Source: Nitriliruptorales bacterium (GTDB lineage: Bacteria > Actinomycetota > Nitriliruptoria > Euzebyales > Egibacteraceae). Taken from it: a stretch of 32,310 nt of DNA. Below, one piece after another: positions 3,370-9,671 of the stretch. How positions within the stretch are numbered: the first letter of the stretch is position 1; each line of letters opens with the position of its first letter. A program made the position numbers and the translations under genes. The notes beneath the pieces were generated by a model. The model saw only the letters and a list, made by a program, of their open reading frames with translations, was not told where the DNA came from and searched no databases. The stretch spans positions 1 through 32,310 of the forward strand of contig WHTC01000011.1 in assembly GCA_009379795.1 (NCBI GenBank), written 5' to 3'.

Positions 3370-4318
3370 GATCATCGTCGGCCGGGTCCGCGCGCGCCCC
3401 TCGTCCGACGAGGGTGGCCTGGGCGGCGCGGCGGCTGTTGCGGTCGCCGGAGCGGACCAGCAACCGCACGGCGGTGAAGCCGGCCACCGCCAGGGCGATG
3501 ATCGCGGCCACCTCGGCCAGGTCCGACGGTGGGGCGAGCATCCCGCGGTCCTCGTCGAGCCAGGGCCACAGGGCACGCAGGGATCCGGCCATCAACCCGA
3601 CCAGGGCGGCCATGGTCACCGACTGGTGCCGCTCCAGCAGGTAGCCGAGCACCTTGGAGAACATGCCCAGGCCGATGGCCGCACCGGCCACGAACACCAG
3701 CACGTAGAGCACGTCGAGGTTGCGCAGCGCCTGGAGGGTCGGCTCGTAGATGCCGATGACCAGCAGCACGAACGACCCGCTGACTCCCGGCAGGATCATC
3801 GCGCAGATCGCGATCGCCGCCGCCCCGAACACGCCGATCAGCGGCGGGTCGGCGATCGTCTGGGGCGGCAGGGCCACGACGACGAACGCCACGAGGGCCA
3901 ACGCCACCGCAACGGTGAGTTCGCGCCCGTTGCGCCGCTGGATCCGTCTCCAGGGCACGATCAGTGAGCCGGCGATCAGGCCGAAGAAGACCGCGGCGGT
4001 CTGCGACCGATAGTTCTCCAGCAGCGCCGGGATCACCGCCGCGCCGATGCCGAGCGCGACGACGATGCCGCCGCCGAGCGGCAGCACCAGGCGCCAGTGC
4101 ACCTCGGCGAAGTGCCCGCGGGCGCCCGGCAGATCGCCTCGCAGCACCCGCATCGCGGCCGAGGCGAGCGCTCGGATGGAGCCGACGAGGGCCTCGTAGA
4201 TGCCCACGATGAGCGCGACGGTGCCACCGCTGACGCCGGGGATGACGTCGGCGCCGCCCATCAGCATTCCCTGAGCGAAGTGCAGCGCGGGAGATCGACT
4301 GGGAGATCGCATCGCCAC
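3362..4318 (-). CDS. DUF368 (PopT-type) membrane protein, probable polyprenyl-phosphate translocase
   Basis: This 318-residue integral membrane protein carries the two DUF368 signature repeats: GGADVIPGVSGGT near residue 22 and ILPGVSGSFVLLVIG in the middle, separated by many hydrophobic helices. DUF368 proteins (PopT) have been shown in other bacteria to recycle undecaprenyl phosphate across the cytoplasmic membrane for cell-envelope synthesis, in parallel with DedA-family proteins. Transfer of that function here is by family membership. The start is GTG at 4318; an ATG two codons on is equally possible. It lies 19 nt after the treY remnant on the same strand and could share its transcript. 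The C-terminal tail after the last helix is Arg- and Asp-rich and cytoplasmic-looking. Confidence 0.88.
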   Translation of the reverse strand: MAMRSPSRSPALHFAQGMLMGGADVIPGVSGGTVALIVGIYEALVGSIRALASAAMRVLRGDLPGARGHFAEVHWRLVLPLGGGIVVALGIGAAVIPALLENYRSQTAAVFFGLIAGSLIVPWRRIQRRNGRELTVAVALALVAFVVVALPPQTIADPPLIGVFGAAAIAICAMILPGVSGSFVLLVIGIYEPTLQALRNLDVLYVLVFVAGAAIGLGMFSKVLGYLLERHQSVTMAALVGLMAGSLRALWPWLDEDRGMLAPPSDLAEVAAIIALAVAGFTAVRLLVRSGDRNSRRAAQATLVGRGARADPADDDLT

Positions 4319-4337
4319 GCAGCGTAGCGCGCCACCG

Positions 4338-4596
4338 TCACACTCCGAACGGCCGCCGGACCGTGCGCTTCAGCGGTGTGGCCCAGTCCACGTCGAACAC
4401 CGACCCGGCCGGCCCGGAATGGCCGCCCGCCAGCAGCGCCCGCCATAACGGCGTGGCGAACCCGGCGCTCAAGTGGTTCGGGACGATGTCGACGACCAGC
4501 CCGAGGCCGGCGGCGTGCACCGCGGCAGCCAGTGCCCGCATGCCCTGCTCGCCGCCCAGCGCTTCGGCGCCTCGCGATCGGTTCAGGAAAAGGGGG

Positions 4597-4604
<8 letters not shown>
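4338..4604 (-). pseudogene. treY: Remnant of treY (malto-oligosyltrehalose synthase), internally deleted and truncated
   Basis: The 88-codon frame contains ALGGEQGMRALAAAVHAAGL, then GLVVDIVPNHL and VFDVDW, which match the conserved stretch of TreY around its GLxVDIVPNH motif and FDIDW. A full TreY is about 700 or more residues. Here the usual first 60 or so residues (the RLQ start and the SHGYDVVD region) are missing and the frame stops soon after FDVDW. The ATG overlaps the glgX stop (ATGACTGA), as expected of an original glgX/treX-treY operon. I infer that deletions removed most of treY and any treZ. It could still be translated as a short peptide, but no catalytic TreY function is possible. 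Confidence 0.75.
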
Positions 4605-6741
<2,137 letters not shown>

Positions 6742-6778: not shown

Positions 6779-8125
6779 ATGCCGCCCTCCTCCGGGCATG
6801 ACAAGGCCGACGCCGCGCTGAGCGCGGAGCAGGCCGCCGGCGCGCCGGCGGAACTGCGCGGCCGCCTGCACAGCTGGCGCCATCCGGCAGTCCTGTCCGC
6901 GGCCGGACTGTCGGTAGCCGCGGGCTTCGCGCAGTTCTCCGTCACCGCCGCGCTGCCCGACGTGGCCGCCGCCTTCGGCGAGATCCGCCCGGACGACGCG
7001 AGCATCGCGGCACAGGCGGGGCTAGCGGCAACCACGCTGGGTCTGGGGCTGGCGGTGATCCGCTTCGCCTCGCTGGGAGCGCTGCCGCTGTCGGCACTGG
7101 CCGACCGCGCTGGGCGGCGGCGGGTGGTGCTCACCTGCGCGGCGCTCGGCCTGCTGTTCACGGTGGCCGCGGCCTTCAGCCCCGGCTTCTGGTGGTTCGT
7201 GGCCATCGCCGCCGTCGGCCGGCCGCTGCTGTCCACCACCAACGCCGTGGCCGGAGTGATCGCCGCCGAGGAGACCAGAACCCGTGACCGGGCCTACGCC
7301 CTCGCACTGATCACCGCAGGCTATGGCATTGGGGCGGGAACAGCGGCGCTGCTGCGCGGCATCATCGGGGAGGCGCTGGGGTTCCGCGAGCTGTTCGGGC
7401 TGGCCGTGGTCTTCCTCGTCGCCGTGCCGCTGCTCGGCCGGATGCTGGAGGAGCCGGCCCGCTTCAACCGGGTACGGGCGCTGGGCGCCGCGCGCCGCTG
7501 GTCGCTGGATGGCATCCCTCGCTCAGGGCTGCTCGGCGGGCGATTCCGCATCATGGCGCTGACCACCCTGGCGATCGCGTTCCTCACCGGGCCGGTCAAC
7601 ACGTTTCTGTTCCTGTTCGGCGAGAACGTGCTGCACATGACCCGCGCCACCACGGCGCTTGCGGTGATCGCCGCGGCGCCCATCGGGCTGCTCGGCCTGC
7701 TGAGCGGCCGGGCGCTCGCCGACCGCCTGGGCCGAGTGCCCTCGGCCGCGGGGGCGCACGCGCTGATGGCGATCGCGGGGGTCATCACCTACAGCGGCAC
7801 CCCGACCGGCCTGATCGCCGGCTATCTCGCCACCATCTACGCGGCCTCGGCCTACGCCCCGGCCCAGGGAGCGCTCGCCGCGGAACTGTTCCCCACCAGC
7901 ATGCGGGCGACTGTGGCGGGCGCGATCACCGCCGTCAACGTGATCGGCGCGGTGCTTGGGTTGGTGGGCTTCGGCATGCTCACCGACCGCTTCGACAGCT
8001 TTGGGATGGCCGCGATCGGCATCGCCGCGCCGGTCCTGCTGATCGCGCCACTGTATCTGCGCCTGCCCGAAACCCGGCACCTGGAGCTGGAGCAGTCCGC
8101 TCCGGAGGAGATCTCGCCCGCATGA
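6779..8125 (+). CDS. MFS transporter
   Basis: This 448-residue protein has about twelve hydrophobic segments and the major-facilitator motif A in the loop after TM2 ([11 protein letters not shown]), with a matching [10 protein letters not shown] loop in the second half. The end ([11 protein letters not shown]) resembles the PETR motif of sugar-porter-like members, but the substrate cannot be read from sequence. The ATG at 6779 has GAGGA upstream at suitable distance. It lies 60 nt upstream of the nitrile hydratase-like genes on the same strand, so it may import or export the substrate or product of that enzyme (inference). It is divergent from glgX. Confidence 0.88.
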
Positions 8126-8185
8126 CCGGTATGGTGCAATCAGGGGACCAGCCGGACCGGCGGGCGCTCGCAGAAGGGATCACCC

Positions 8186-9214
8186 ATGGCCGAACACCCC
8201 CACGGCCCGCATCTGCAGGATGCGGAGGGCCACGTAAGGGCCGTCCAGTCGGATCTGGAGTACCTCCGCAGGAAACGGCTCGAGCCGCGCATCCTGCACT
8301 TCGCGCGCCGCGGATTGGTATCCCTGGCGGATCTCCTGCGCGCGCACGCTTTCCTGGCCGCCGTGCCACCGGAGCGTGACGGCGCCGGGCCGCCCTCGCT
8401 CGAGGCGCGGATCCGTGGCCTTGAGGACTCCCTGGATGCCCTGGTCACCGGCATCGCGACCGCCACGATCCCGGTGGTCGGCGAGGCGGTCCCCATCGAC
8501 GACACGCGCAGGGAGCGCGGGGACTATGACCCGTTCTTCGTGCTGGCGAAACGCTCCTATACCGGCGCCCTGGAGGAGCGGCTGGGCCAACTGGAACGCG
8601 AGCTCGGCGAAGCCCACCTGGTGCTGCGCGCCTTCACCCAGGCGCTGCTGGCAACGGGCCGGGTGACCCAGGAGCAGCTCGACGCTCGCACGCGGCAGCT
8701 GTCCAGCCTGGGGTACCGCAACGGCGCGCGGATCGTGGCCCGGGCGTGGGTTGACGAGGACTTCAAGCGCCGCCTGCTCCACGAGGGCCGGCCGGCCGTG
8801 CGCGAACTCGACATCCCACCCGGCCGCCTCGGTCGCCTGGGGGTGGCCGAGAACACCGCCGACGTGCACCATGTGGTGGTCTGCACGCTGTGCTCGTGCT
8901 ACCCCCACGACCTGCTCGGGGACCCCCCCTGGTGGTACCGCACCGACGAGTACAAGCAGCGGATCGTGGTCGACCCCCGCGGGACCCTGCGGGAGATGTT
9001 CGGCCTGGAGTTGCCGGACGGCGTACGGGTGAAGGTGCACGACAGCACGTCCGACGTGCGCTGGATGGTGCTGCCGACGCGACCCTCGGGCTCCGAGGGC
9101 ATGACCGAGGAACAGCTTGCCGACCTCGTCACCTCAGAAAGCCTGGTCGGGACCGCACCGGCGCGGTCGCCCCTCGAGCGGTCAGCGGAGCCGACCTCCG
9201 CGCCGGGACCGTGA
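8186..9214 (+). CDS. Nitrile hydratase/thiocyanate hydrolase alpha-type protein with N-terminal extension
   Basis: Residues 145-325 match the nitrile hydratase alpha (thiocyanate hydrolase gamma) fold: NGARIVARAWVDEDFK, then the metal-site motif VCTLCSCYP with Cys233, Cys236 and Cys238, then WYRTDEYKQRIV, VHDSTSD and VLPTRPSGSEGM. A Thr between the first two Cys is the usual cobalt-type form. The protein is 342 residues against about 200-240 for the family because of an N-terminal region of about 145 residues that I cannot assign; it is helical and charged, and could be a divergent beta or activator-like domain. The ATG has AGAAGGGA upstream. Its TGA overlaps the GTG of the next gene (GTGA). 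Expected chemistry is hydration of a nitrile-like or thiocyanate-like substrate; the true substrate is unknown. No amidase is nearby. Confidence 0.85.
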   Translation: MAEHPHGPHLQDAEGHVRAVQSDLEYLRRKRLEPRILHFARRGLVSLADLLRAHAFLAAVPPERDGAGPPSLEARIRGLEDSLDALVTGIATATIPVVGEAVPIDDTRRERGDYDPFFVLAKRSYTGALEERLGQLERELGEAHLVLRAFTQALLATGRVTQEQLDARTRQLSSLGYRNGARIVARAWVDEDFKRRLLHEGRPAVRELDIPPGRLGRLGVAENTADVHHVVVCTLCSCYPHDLLGDPPWWYRTDEYKQRIVVDPRGTLREMFGLELPDGVRVKVHDSTSDVRWMVLPTRPSGSEGMTEEQLADLVTSESLVGTAPARSPLERSAEPTSAPGP

Positions 9215-9495
9215 CCGCCGGCCTGGACCTGGGGCGTGGGCGCTTCCAGGTGGGTGACCGCGTCCGCGTGCTCCTCGAGGCACGCGGCGGCAACCCCCGT
9301 ACACCGTCCTACGTCCACGGCCGCACGGGCCACGTGACGCACGCCTACGGTGTCCTGGTGAACCCGCTGGACCACGCCGACCCCTACCCCCCGCTGTACA
9401 CGGTCGTCTTCGAGGTGGCGCACCTGTTCGATCCGGCCAACCCGGACCAGGTCGCGGTCGACCTGCACGAGGACTGGCTGGAACCGACCGCCTGA
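9211..9495 (+). CDS. Nitrile hydratase beta subunit C-terminal domain, stand-alone
   Basis: This 94-residue protein matches only the SH3-like C-terminal half of nitrile hydratase beta (like the thiocyanate hydrolase alpha subunit): FQVGDRVRV, then PSYVHGRTGHV, LYTVVFE and VDLHEDWLEP. The Arg of the YVxGRxG motif, which in known enzymes contacts the oxidised metal-binding cysteines, is present. The usual N-terminal helical half of beta is absent and is not encoded as a separate gene in the surrounding region. The GTG start overlaps the previous stop by 4 nt, so the two proteins are almost certainly made together and form a complex. It is the last gene of the transporter/hydratase unit. Confidence 0.85.
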   Translation: MTAGLDLGRGRFQVGDRVRVLLEARGGNPRTPSYVHGRTGHVTHAYGVLVNPLDHADPYPPLYTVVFEVAHLFDPANPDQVAVDLHEDWLEPTA

Positions 9496-9530: not shown

Positions 9531-9658
9531 GCCGGTCAGCTCCATGTGAAGCTCACCCTCCACGGACTGACCGATCAACTTCACAACACGCCGCCGGTCA
9601 GCTTCACGTGAACGTGACCCTCGCGTCCGTGACCGGTCGTCTTCAAGTGAAGCTGAGC
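9531..9658. repeat. Diverged tandem repeat (period 62) with TTCACGTGAA-type palindromes
   Basis: The spacer between two convergent genes contains two diverged copies of a 62-nt unit starting GCCGGTCAGCT at 9531 and 9593. Each unit has GTCAGCT-TCA-GTGAA followed by TGACCG and CTTCA. Cores are TCCATGTGAA (9541-9550), TTCACGTGAA (9603-9612, perfect palindrome) and TTCAAGTGAA (9642-9651); a TTCAC half-site is at 9580-9584. The last two cores, with flanking AGCTGA/TCAGCT, can also pair with each other as a long hairpin. It may be a terminator, protein-binding sites or a decayed mobile repeat; I cannot tell which. Confidence 0.5.
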
Positions 9659-9671
9659 GGCACGCCTTTCC

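Follow-up and report, generated by a model that had tools for sequence, protein, structure and literature searches.

A two-gene, actinobacterial lineage of the nitrile hydratase/thiocyanate hydrolase superfamily without a recognisable N-terminal half of the beta subunit

Background

Nitrile hydratases (NHases) are industrial catalysts which need the N-terminal half of the beta subunit (beta-N) with its essential Arg, and nearly all of them also depend on a separate activator, by which the metal is inserted and cysteines are oxidised. How, then, should one understand a locus which encodes an NHase-type alpha protein together with the C-terminal domain of beta (beta-C) only? Such a locus lies in the stretch of DNA studied here (contig C433, 32,310 nucleotides, hereafter the window), which comes from an actinobacterial assembly of about 3.65 Mb in 511 contigs, 95% complete. 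An initial annotation, made from the window alone, had described an MFS transporter, a 342-residue alpha-type protein with an intact CTLCSC metal motif and a short beta-C as one unit, related to NHase or thiocyanate hydrolase (SCNase) and possibly acting on a substrate other than classical nitriles. In this study we compare the locus with its relatives in other genomes, and we weigh what the alpha protein, the beta-C protein and their hosts imply for the parts of which such an enzyme is built.

Results

The locus and its neighbourhood

The three genes were confirmed at the positions given in Table 1, all of them on the + strand. The GTG start of the beta-C gene overlaps the stop codon of the alpha gene as GTGA, and the match to NHase_beta_C (PF02211) spans nearly the whole beta-C protein. 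The earlier description of the alpha protein and its metal motif also stands, although it was silent on the 144-residue N-terminal region being a conserved domain, with which the protein is called the fused alpha below. The window neighbours scanned comprise an XRE/DUF5753 regulator, an undecaprenyl-phosphate translocase-like gene, a GlgX-type amylase, a GT4, an M48, an NYN and an aminotransferase gene; as had been claimed, no amidase, activator or cobalt transporter is among them, the stronger fact for the activator being its genome-wide absence, to which we return.

Table 1. Features of the locus, in window coordinates
Feature	Position	Strand	Details
MFS transporter	6779..8125	+	448 aa; Pfam MFS_1 E=1.6e-29; 60-bp gap before alpha gene
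Fused NHase-type alpha protein	8186..9214	+	342 aa; Pfam NHase_alpha E=9.4e-65
Alpha N-terminal domain (aa 1-144)	8186..8617	+	predicted all-helical; 28 invariant residues; no Pfam/PDB match
Conserved loop I(D/E)(D/E)xRxERGDY (aa 104-114)	8495..8527	+	invariant R108, E110, R111, G112, D113, Y114
NHase alpha catalytic domain (aa 145-324)	8618..9157	+	Pfam and PDB sequence match
Metal-binding motif CTLCSC (C233, C236, C238)	8882..8899	+	sequence; identical in 12/12 clade members
Pocket His241	8906..8908	+	H in 12/12 clade members
Free-standing NHase beta C-terminal domain	9211..9495	+	94 aa; PF02211 E=7e-15
Beta-C Arg30	9298..9300	+	alignment to 3qxe_B; invariant in 9/9 sequences aligned

The interval that separates the beta-C gene from the glycosyltransferase gene convergent with it contains a palindromic repeat, about GGTCAGCTTCACGTGAAGSTGACC, three times (window positions 9534-9661). 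With one mismatch allowed, its core has 18 matches on both strands of the source genome, against 0 for a reversed-pattern control; most of the copies inspected are intergenic, and the repeat thus resembles a REP- or terminator-like dispersed element.

The two-gene form in other genomes

Among about 85,000 species genomes scanned, eight other actinobacterial loci with a fused alpha came to light, at 58-64% identity, their hosts including Nitriliruptoraceae, Blastococcus, Nocardioides aequoreus, Streptosporangiales and Acidimicrobiia. Whole-genome searches contributed three further genomes (G009, G136 and G409), which makes 12 with the source genome. The fused alpha is rare: it was found in 3 genomes of the 397 sampled from the phylum and in 4 of the 66 from the class, and a plasmid search for its N-terminal domain gave no match.

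A short beta-C is linked to the fused alpha in all 12 genomes, although this does not prove an obligate pairing of the two, because their genes are not adjacent in two genomes: in G009 they are separated by a LacI-type regulator plus a CMD/AhpD-like CxxC protein, and in G409 by the CMD/AhpD-like protein alone. Base-level reading of nine loci showed that the beta-C start either overlaps the stop codon of alpha or lies about 12 nt or less from it. A normal beta that was frameshifted or truncated is ruled out, as is a chance reading, the short beta-C and the fused alpha having been kept together in 12 genomes. The co-occurrence count which the initial annotation had called for thus favours the pair and leaves the MFS gene beside alpha in the source genome only; the pair itself, as a member of the NHase/SCNase superfamily in which no beta-N half can be recognised, is borne out, and its architecture recurs in 11 other genomes. 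Loss of the metal motif in close relatives, which had been named as a sign against this interpretation, was looked for as well, and the motif is intact throughout. A literature search, which covered part of the literature, found no description of a fused alpha with a short beta-C, and the form is not among the six NHase gene organisations given in a review (PMC7193024).

Position of the fused alpha and its beta-C within the superfamily

When the AlphaFold2 model of the 342-residue protein (pLDDT 81) was compared with the PDB by Foldseek, it hit NHase alpha chains (E=1.8e-16), and the protein has both the PF02979 alpha fold and the C(T/S)LCSC claw of the superfamily. Against the NHase equivalog TIGR01323 it scores 205 bits, under the cut-off of 249.85; five other clade members score 189-211 bits, while a three-gene relative (281) and a classical relative (299) pass. 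Its score against TIGR03887, the model of SCNase gamma, is 155.8 bits, again under the cut-off (291.45). As for the partner, the locus encodes only beta-C, so that the full two-domain beta of nitrile hydratase is lacking, and without a beta-N it does not make up the three subunits (betaN, betaC and an alpha-like gamma) of thiocyanate hydrolase. Because the defining features of each enzyme were tested and are not found here, we file the locus as neither, and regard it as a distinct two-gene lineage of the superfamily. Of 49 alpha domains placed in a tree, the 12 fused ones make up one side of a single branch with support 100/100 and length 0.88, and this clade is grouped, with moderate support (94/85), with the split-beta three-gene NHases of other actinobacteria.

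The Thr of the CTLCSC motif is a signature of the cobalt type, and from it the fused alpha is probably of that type. Among the alphas compared, the residue following CSCYP is His in all fused forms, Trp in classical NHases, Arg in the three-gene group and Ile or Leu in a few; Arg is also found at this position in thiocyanate hydrolase (R136, SCNase gamma). By the claws C108-C113 of Pseudonocardia thermophila and C128-C133 of Thiobacillus thioparus, we take His241 to be the counterpart of W116 of the P. thermophila NHase and of R136 of SCNase gamma. The titles of two PDB entries, NHase W116R and SCNase R136W, tell that the same position was chosen by others for an exchange between the two enzymes. 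A different substrate, as proposed early on for this locus, gains some support from this residue, and the pocket His suggests a third substrate class beside those of NHase (Trp) and SCNase (Arg).

The N-terminal domain of the fused alpha

The N-terminal region contains 28 invariant positions, and its conserved loop reads IDDTRRERGDY in the window protein. Since this domain stands where no beta-N is found, the most serious alternative is that it is itself a beta-N or an activator, fused to alpha and diverged past recognition, in which case the locus would be a rearranged betaN-alpha plus betaC from which nothing was lost. The order of elements in beta-N is a helix, RxG, a helix with DEFR and another helix, and the helix order which the AlphaFold2 model of the whole protein predicts for the N-terminal domain (H13-41, RRG, H47-58, H72-92) resembles it; moreover, one hhalign run put RRG-x-ADLLRA on ARG-x-DEIRRA, and sister lineages carry a separate beta-N. 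However, when the domain was compared as a profile of 13 rows from the 12 genomes (one present twice) with a broad beta-N profile, the hhalign score was 16.8, within the range of 60 column-shuffled versions of which the best reached 22.1, whereas the true relatives used as positive controls against classical beta scored 97 (activators) and 164 (three-gene beta-N). Where the catalytic Arg of beta-N would fall, different members have R, Q, G, A or L. Furthermore, no convincing Pfam family matches residues 1-144, and the domain modelled alone, at a low-confidence pLDDT of 62, has no fold match by Foldseek. With Pfam, Foldseek and the controlled hhalign comparison all failing to support a beta-N hidden in the alpha N-terminus, we hold this explanation to be doubtful, though it deserves to be kept in mind. 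In either case, beta-N is missing or beyond recognition at these loci, and what they have in its stead is a conserved helical domain.

Catalytic residues and inserted genes

If the pair is not an altered arrangement of known parts, it may still be asked whether it is an enzyme at all. The loss of beta-N removes an Arg which classical NHases require, betaR56 variants being inactive (PMC7193024), and in two genomes alpha is separated from beta-C by the gene for a CMD/AhpD-like CxxC protein, to which one of the two adds a LacI gene; on these grounds the pair could have ceased to be a hydratase and be a metal-binding protein which serves, for instance, in redox chemistry, in maturation or as a sensor. 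Against this, the metal-claw residues, D286 and R292 of alpha and the Arg of beta-C are all invariant, as expected for a catalytic site that has been kept; Arg30 of beta-C belongs to a GNPRTP motif and falls, in the alignment, on the Arg which full-length beta subunits carry in (H)TRxPxY. We therefore consider the loss of hydratase function unlikely.

The inserted CMD/AhpD-like protein has a CEYC motif and is seen between alpha and beta-C at 3584-5410 of locus L046 and in the matching region of L068; it is a possible maturation or redox partner in those two related genomes. Genes like M24-family metallopeptidases or creatinases, of at least two subfamilies and mostly divergent, were also met beside the fused alpha (L009, L011, L013, L046, L048 and L010): three genomes have orthologous divergent neighbours, two have the other subfamily, one more lies nearby, and the window has none. 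Absent from the window and suggestive only, the M24 gene was set aside as a functional partner. The M24 neighbours together with the inserted LacI gene give hints of a catabolic use.

The MFS transporter

The MFS gene had been regarded as part of the unit, and an operon of transporter and enzyme, with the MFS protein as importer of the substrate, would agree with the shared strand, the short gap before alpha and a best match to aromatic-acid/H+ symporters, the latter below the cut-off of that model. Yet the MFS gene lies beside alpha in none of the 11 other genomes; three related genomes encode homologues with 46-50% identity, on contigs other than that of alpha, and the search of the other eight gave none. 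The transporter is thus ruled out as a conserved partner, and we give little credence to such an operon.

Beta-N and activators in the host genomes

A missing subunit could also be encoded elsewhere, and we searched the whole assemblies of the 12 hosts. The beta-N model (Pfam NHase_beta_N, PF21006) has no match anywhere in 8 of them, among which are G009 (98% complete, 20 contigs) and Nocardioides aequoreus. The search itself works, because in a control set it matched beta subunits, with activator-like second hits beside them, in 35 of 297 actinobacteria. The accessory-protein model TIGR03889 reached its cut-off in 0 of the 12 genomes; looked for by both models, an activator elsewhere in the genome is therefore rejected for most hosts. 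The eight genomes that lack a detectable beta-N have no NHase alpha besides the fused one, the two partial alpha matches of G409 being one gene split over contigs that share 308 identical bases, while the beta-N of the other four is explained by the additional NHase alphas which those genomes also have. A beta-N gene too diverged for PF21006, or one in unassembled parts of metagenome-assembled genomes, is conceivable. The constant pairing of this alpha with a full beta or an activator encoded elsewhere, which had been set out as the outcome to speak against the two-gene form, fails in view of the eight genomes in which neither is detectable.

The source genome itself does encode, at other loci, a full beta and also a free-standing beta-N. 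One locus (L021, contig C217, 5711-7907) is an NHase with the split order betaN-betaC-alpha, after which comes a CbtA cobalt-transporter gene, with ABC-transporter-like genes preceding the locus and a UbiD-type decarboxylase further on; a second (L022, contig C146) has a full beta and alpha; and a third (L023, contig C52) has an alpha near the contig end, then a flavin-reductase-like gene. For a genome of this size, four NHase alphas are worth noting. That the pair is an ordinary nitrile hydratase which relies on the beta-N, full beta or activator of such loci is suggested by the source genome's three, but is contradicted for the clade by the eight hosts in which neither a second NHase alpha nor a beta-N nor an activator could be detected, by the clade's own pocket residue and by its scores under the equivalog cut-off which a three-gene relative passes, and is very improbable.

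Discussion

We interpret the locus, with a probability of roughly 0.6, as a two-gene, activator-free, Co-type enzyme of the NHase superfamily, in which the N-terminal domain of alpha stands in place of beta-N. According to this interpretation, the alpha domain would bind low-spin Co(III) in its CTLCSC claw, where the cobalt would activate water or the substrate, and the free beta-C would form a complex with it, closing one side of the metal site and supplying one conserved Arg. The tethered helical domain would occupy the place of the beta-N half. Because the essential Arg of classical NHases sits in beta-N, a second Arg must come from elsewhere, and the invariant RxERGDY loop is, judged by its conservation, the best candidate to provide this Arg and the Tyr normally contributed by beta-N.

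Maturation would have to differ too. Since most hosts have no beta-N-like activator, the tethered domain may serve as a built-in maturation chaperone; alternatively, maturation might be intrinsic or spontaneous, or might proceed via unrelated proteins, among which the CxxC CMD protein is a possible helper in the two genomes carrying it. The reaction is probably one in which the metal assists in hydrating or hydrolysing a small substrate with a C-N triple bond or a related one, and His241 may alter the specificity. The fuller proposal, namely a self-maturing two-subunit cobalt hydratase or hydrolase in which an unrelated helical domain replaces both beta-N and the activator, with a His pocket and a substrate that is neither a classical nitrile nor thiocyanate, is put forward only tentatively. 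A natural lineage apparently without beta-N and activator is a direct test of which NHase parts are required, and it could offer a simpler scaffold for catalysts.

Comparison with known systems

The closest known systems are the split-beta three-gene NHases of actinobacteria (L016 and the C217 locus of the source genome), which share a free beta-C of about 95 aa, an alpha with CTLCSC and the same side of the alpha tree; they differ in having a separate beta-N gene, an Arg after CSCYP, an alpha without the N-terminal domain and the gene order betaN-betaC-alpha, whereas the order is alpha-betaC in the fused form. The SCNase of Thiobacillus thioparus, in the same superfamily, has a split beta, a CTLCSC claw and, as is presumed for the fused form, cobalt, but consists of three subunits including an equivalent of beta-N, and carries Arg136 in the pocket where the fused form has His. 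Classical Co-type NHases, such as those of Pseudonocardia thermophila and Pseudomonas putida, share the alpha fold, with a TM of about 0.8 to the target, as well as the metal motif and the beta-C Arg, and are set apart by a full-length beta, a separate activator, Trp116 in the pocket and an alpha without the N-terminal domain. Finally, the eukaryotic fused NHase of Monosiga brevicollis is likewise a non-standard subunit fusion with no known activator (PMC7193024, PMC2603476); while half of beta is absent in the fused-alpha form, the Monosiga protein has its beta subunit joined to alpha.
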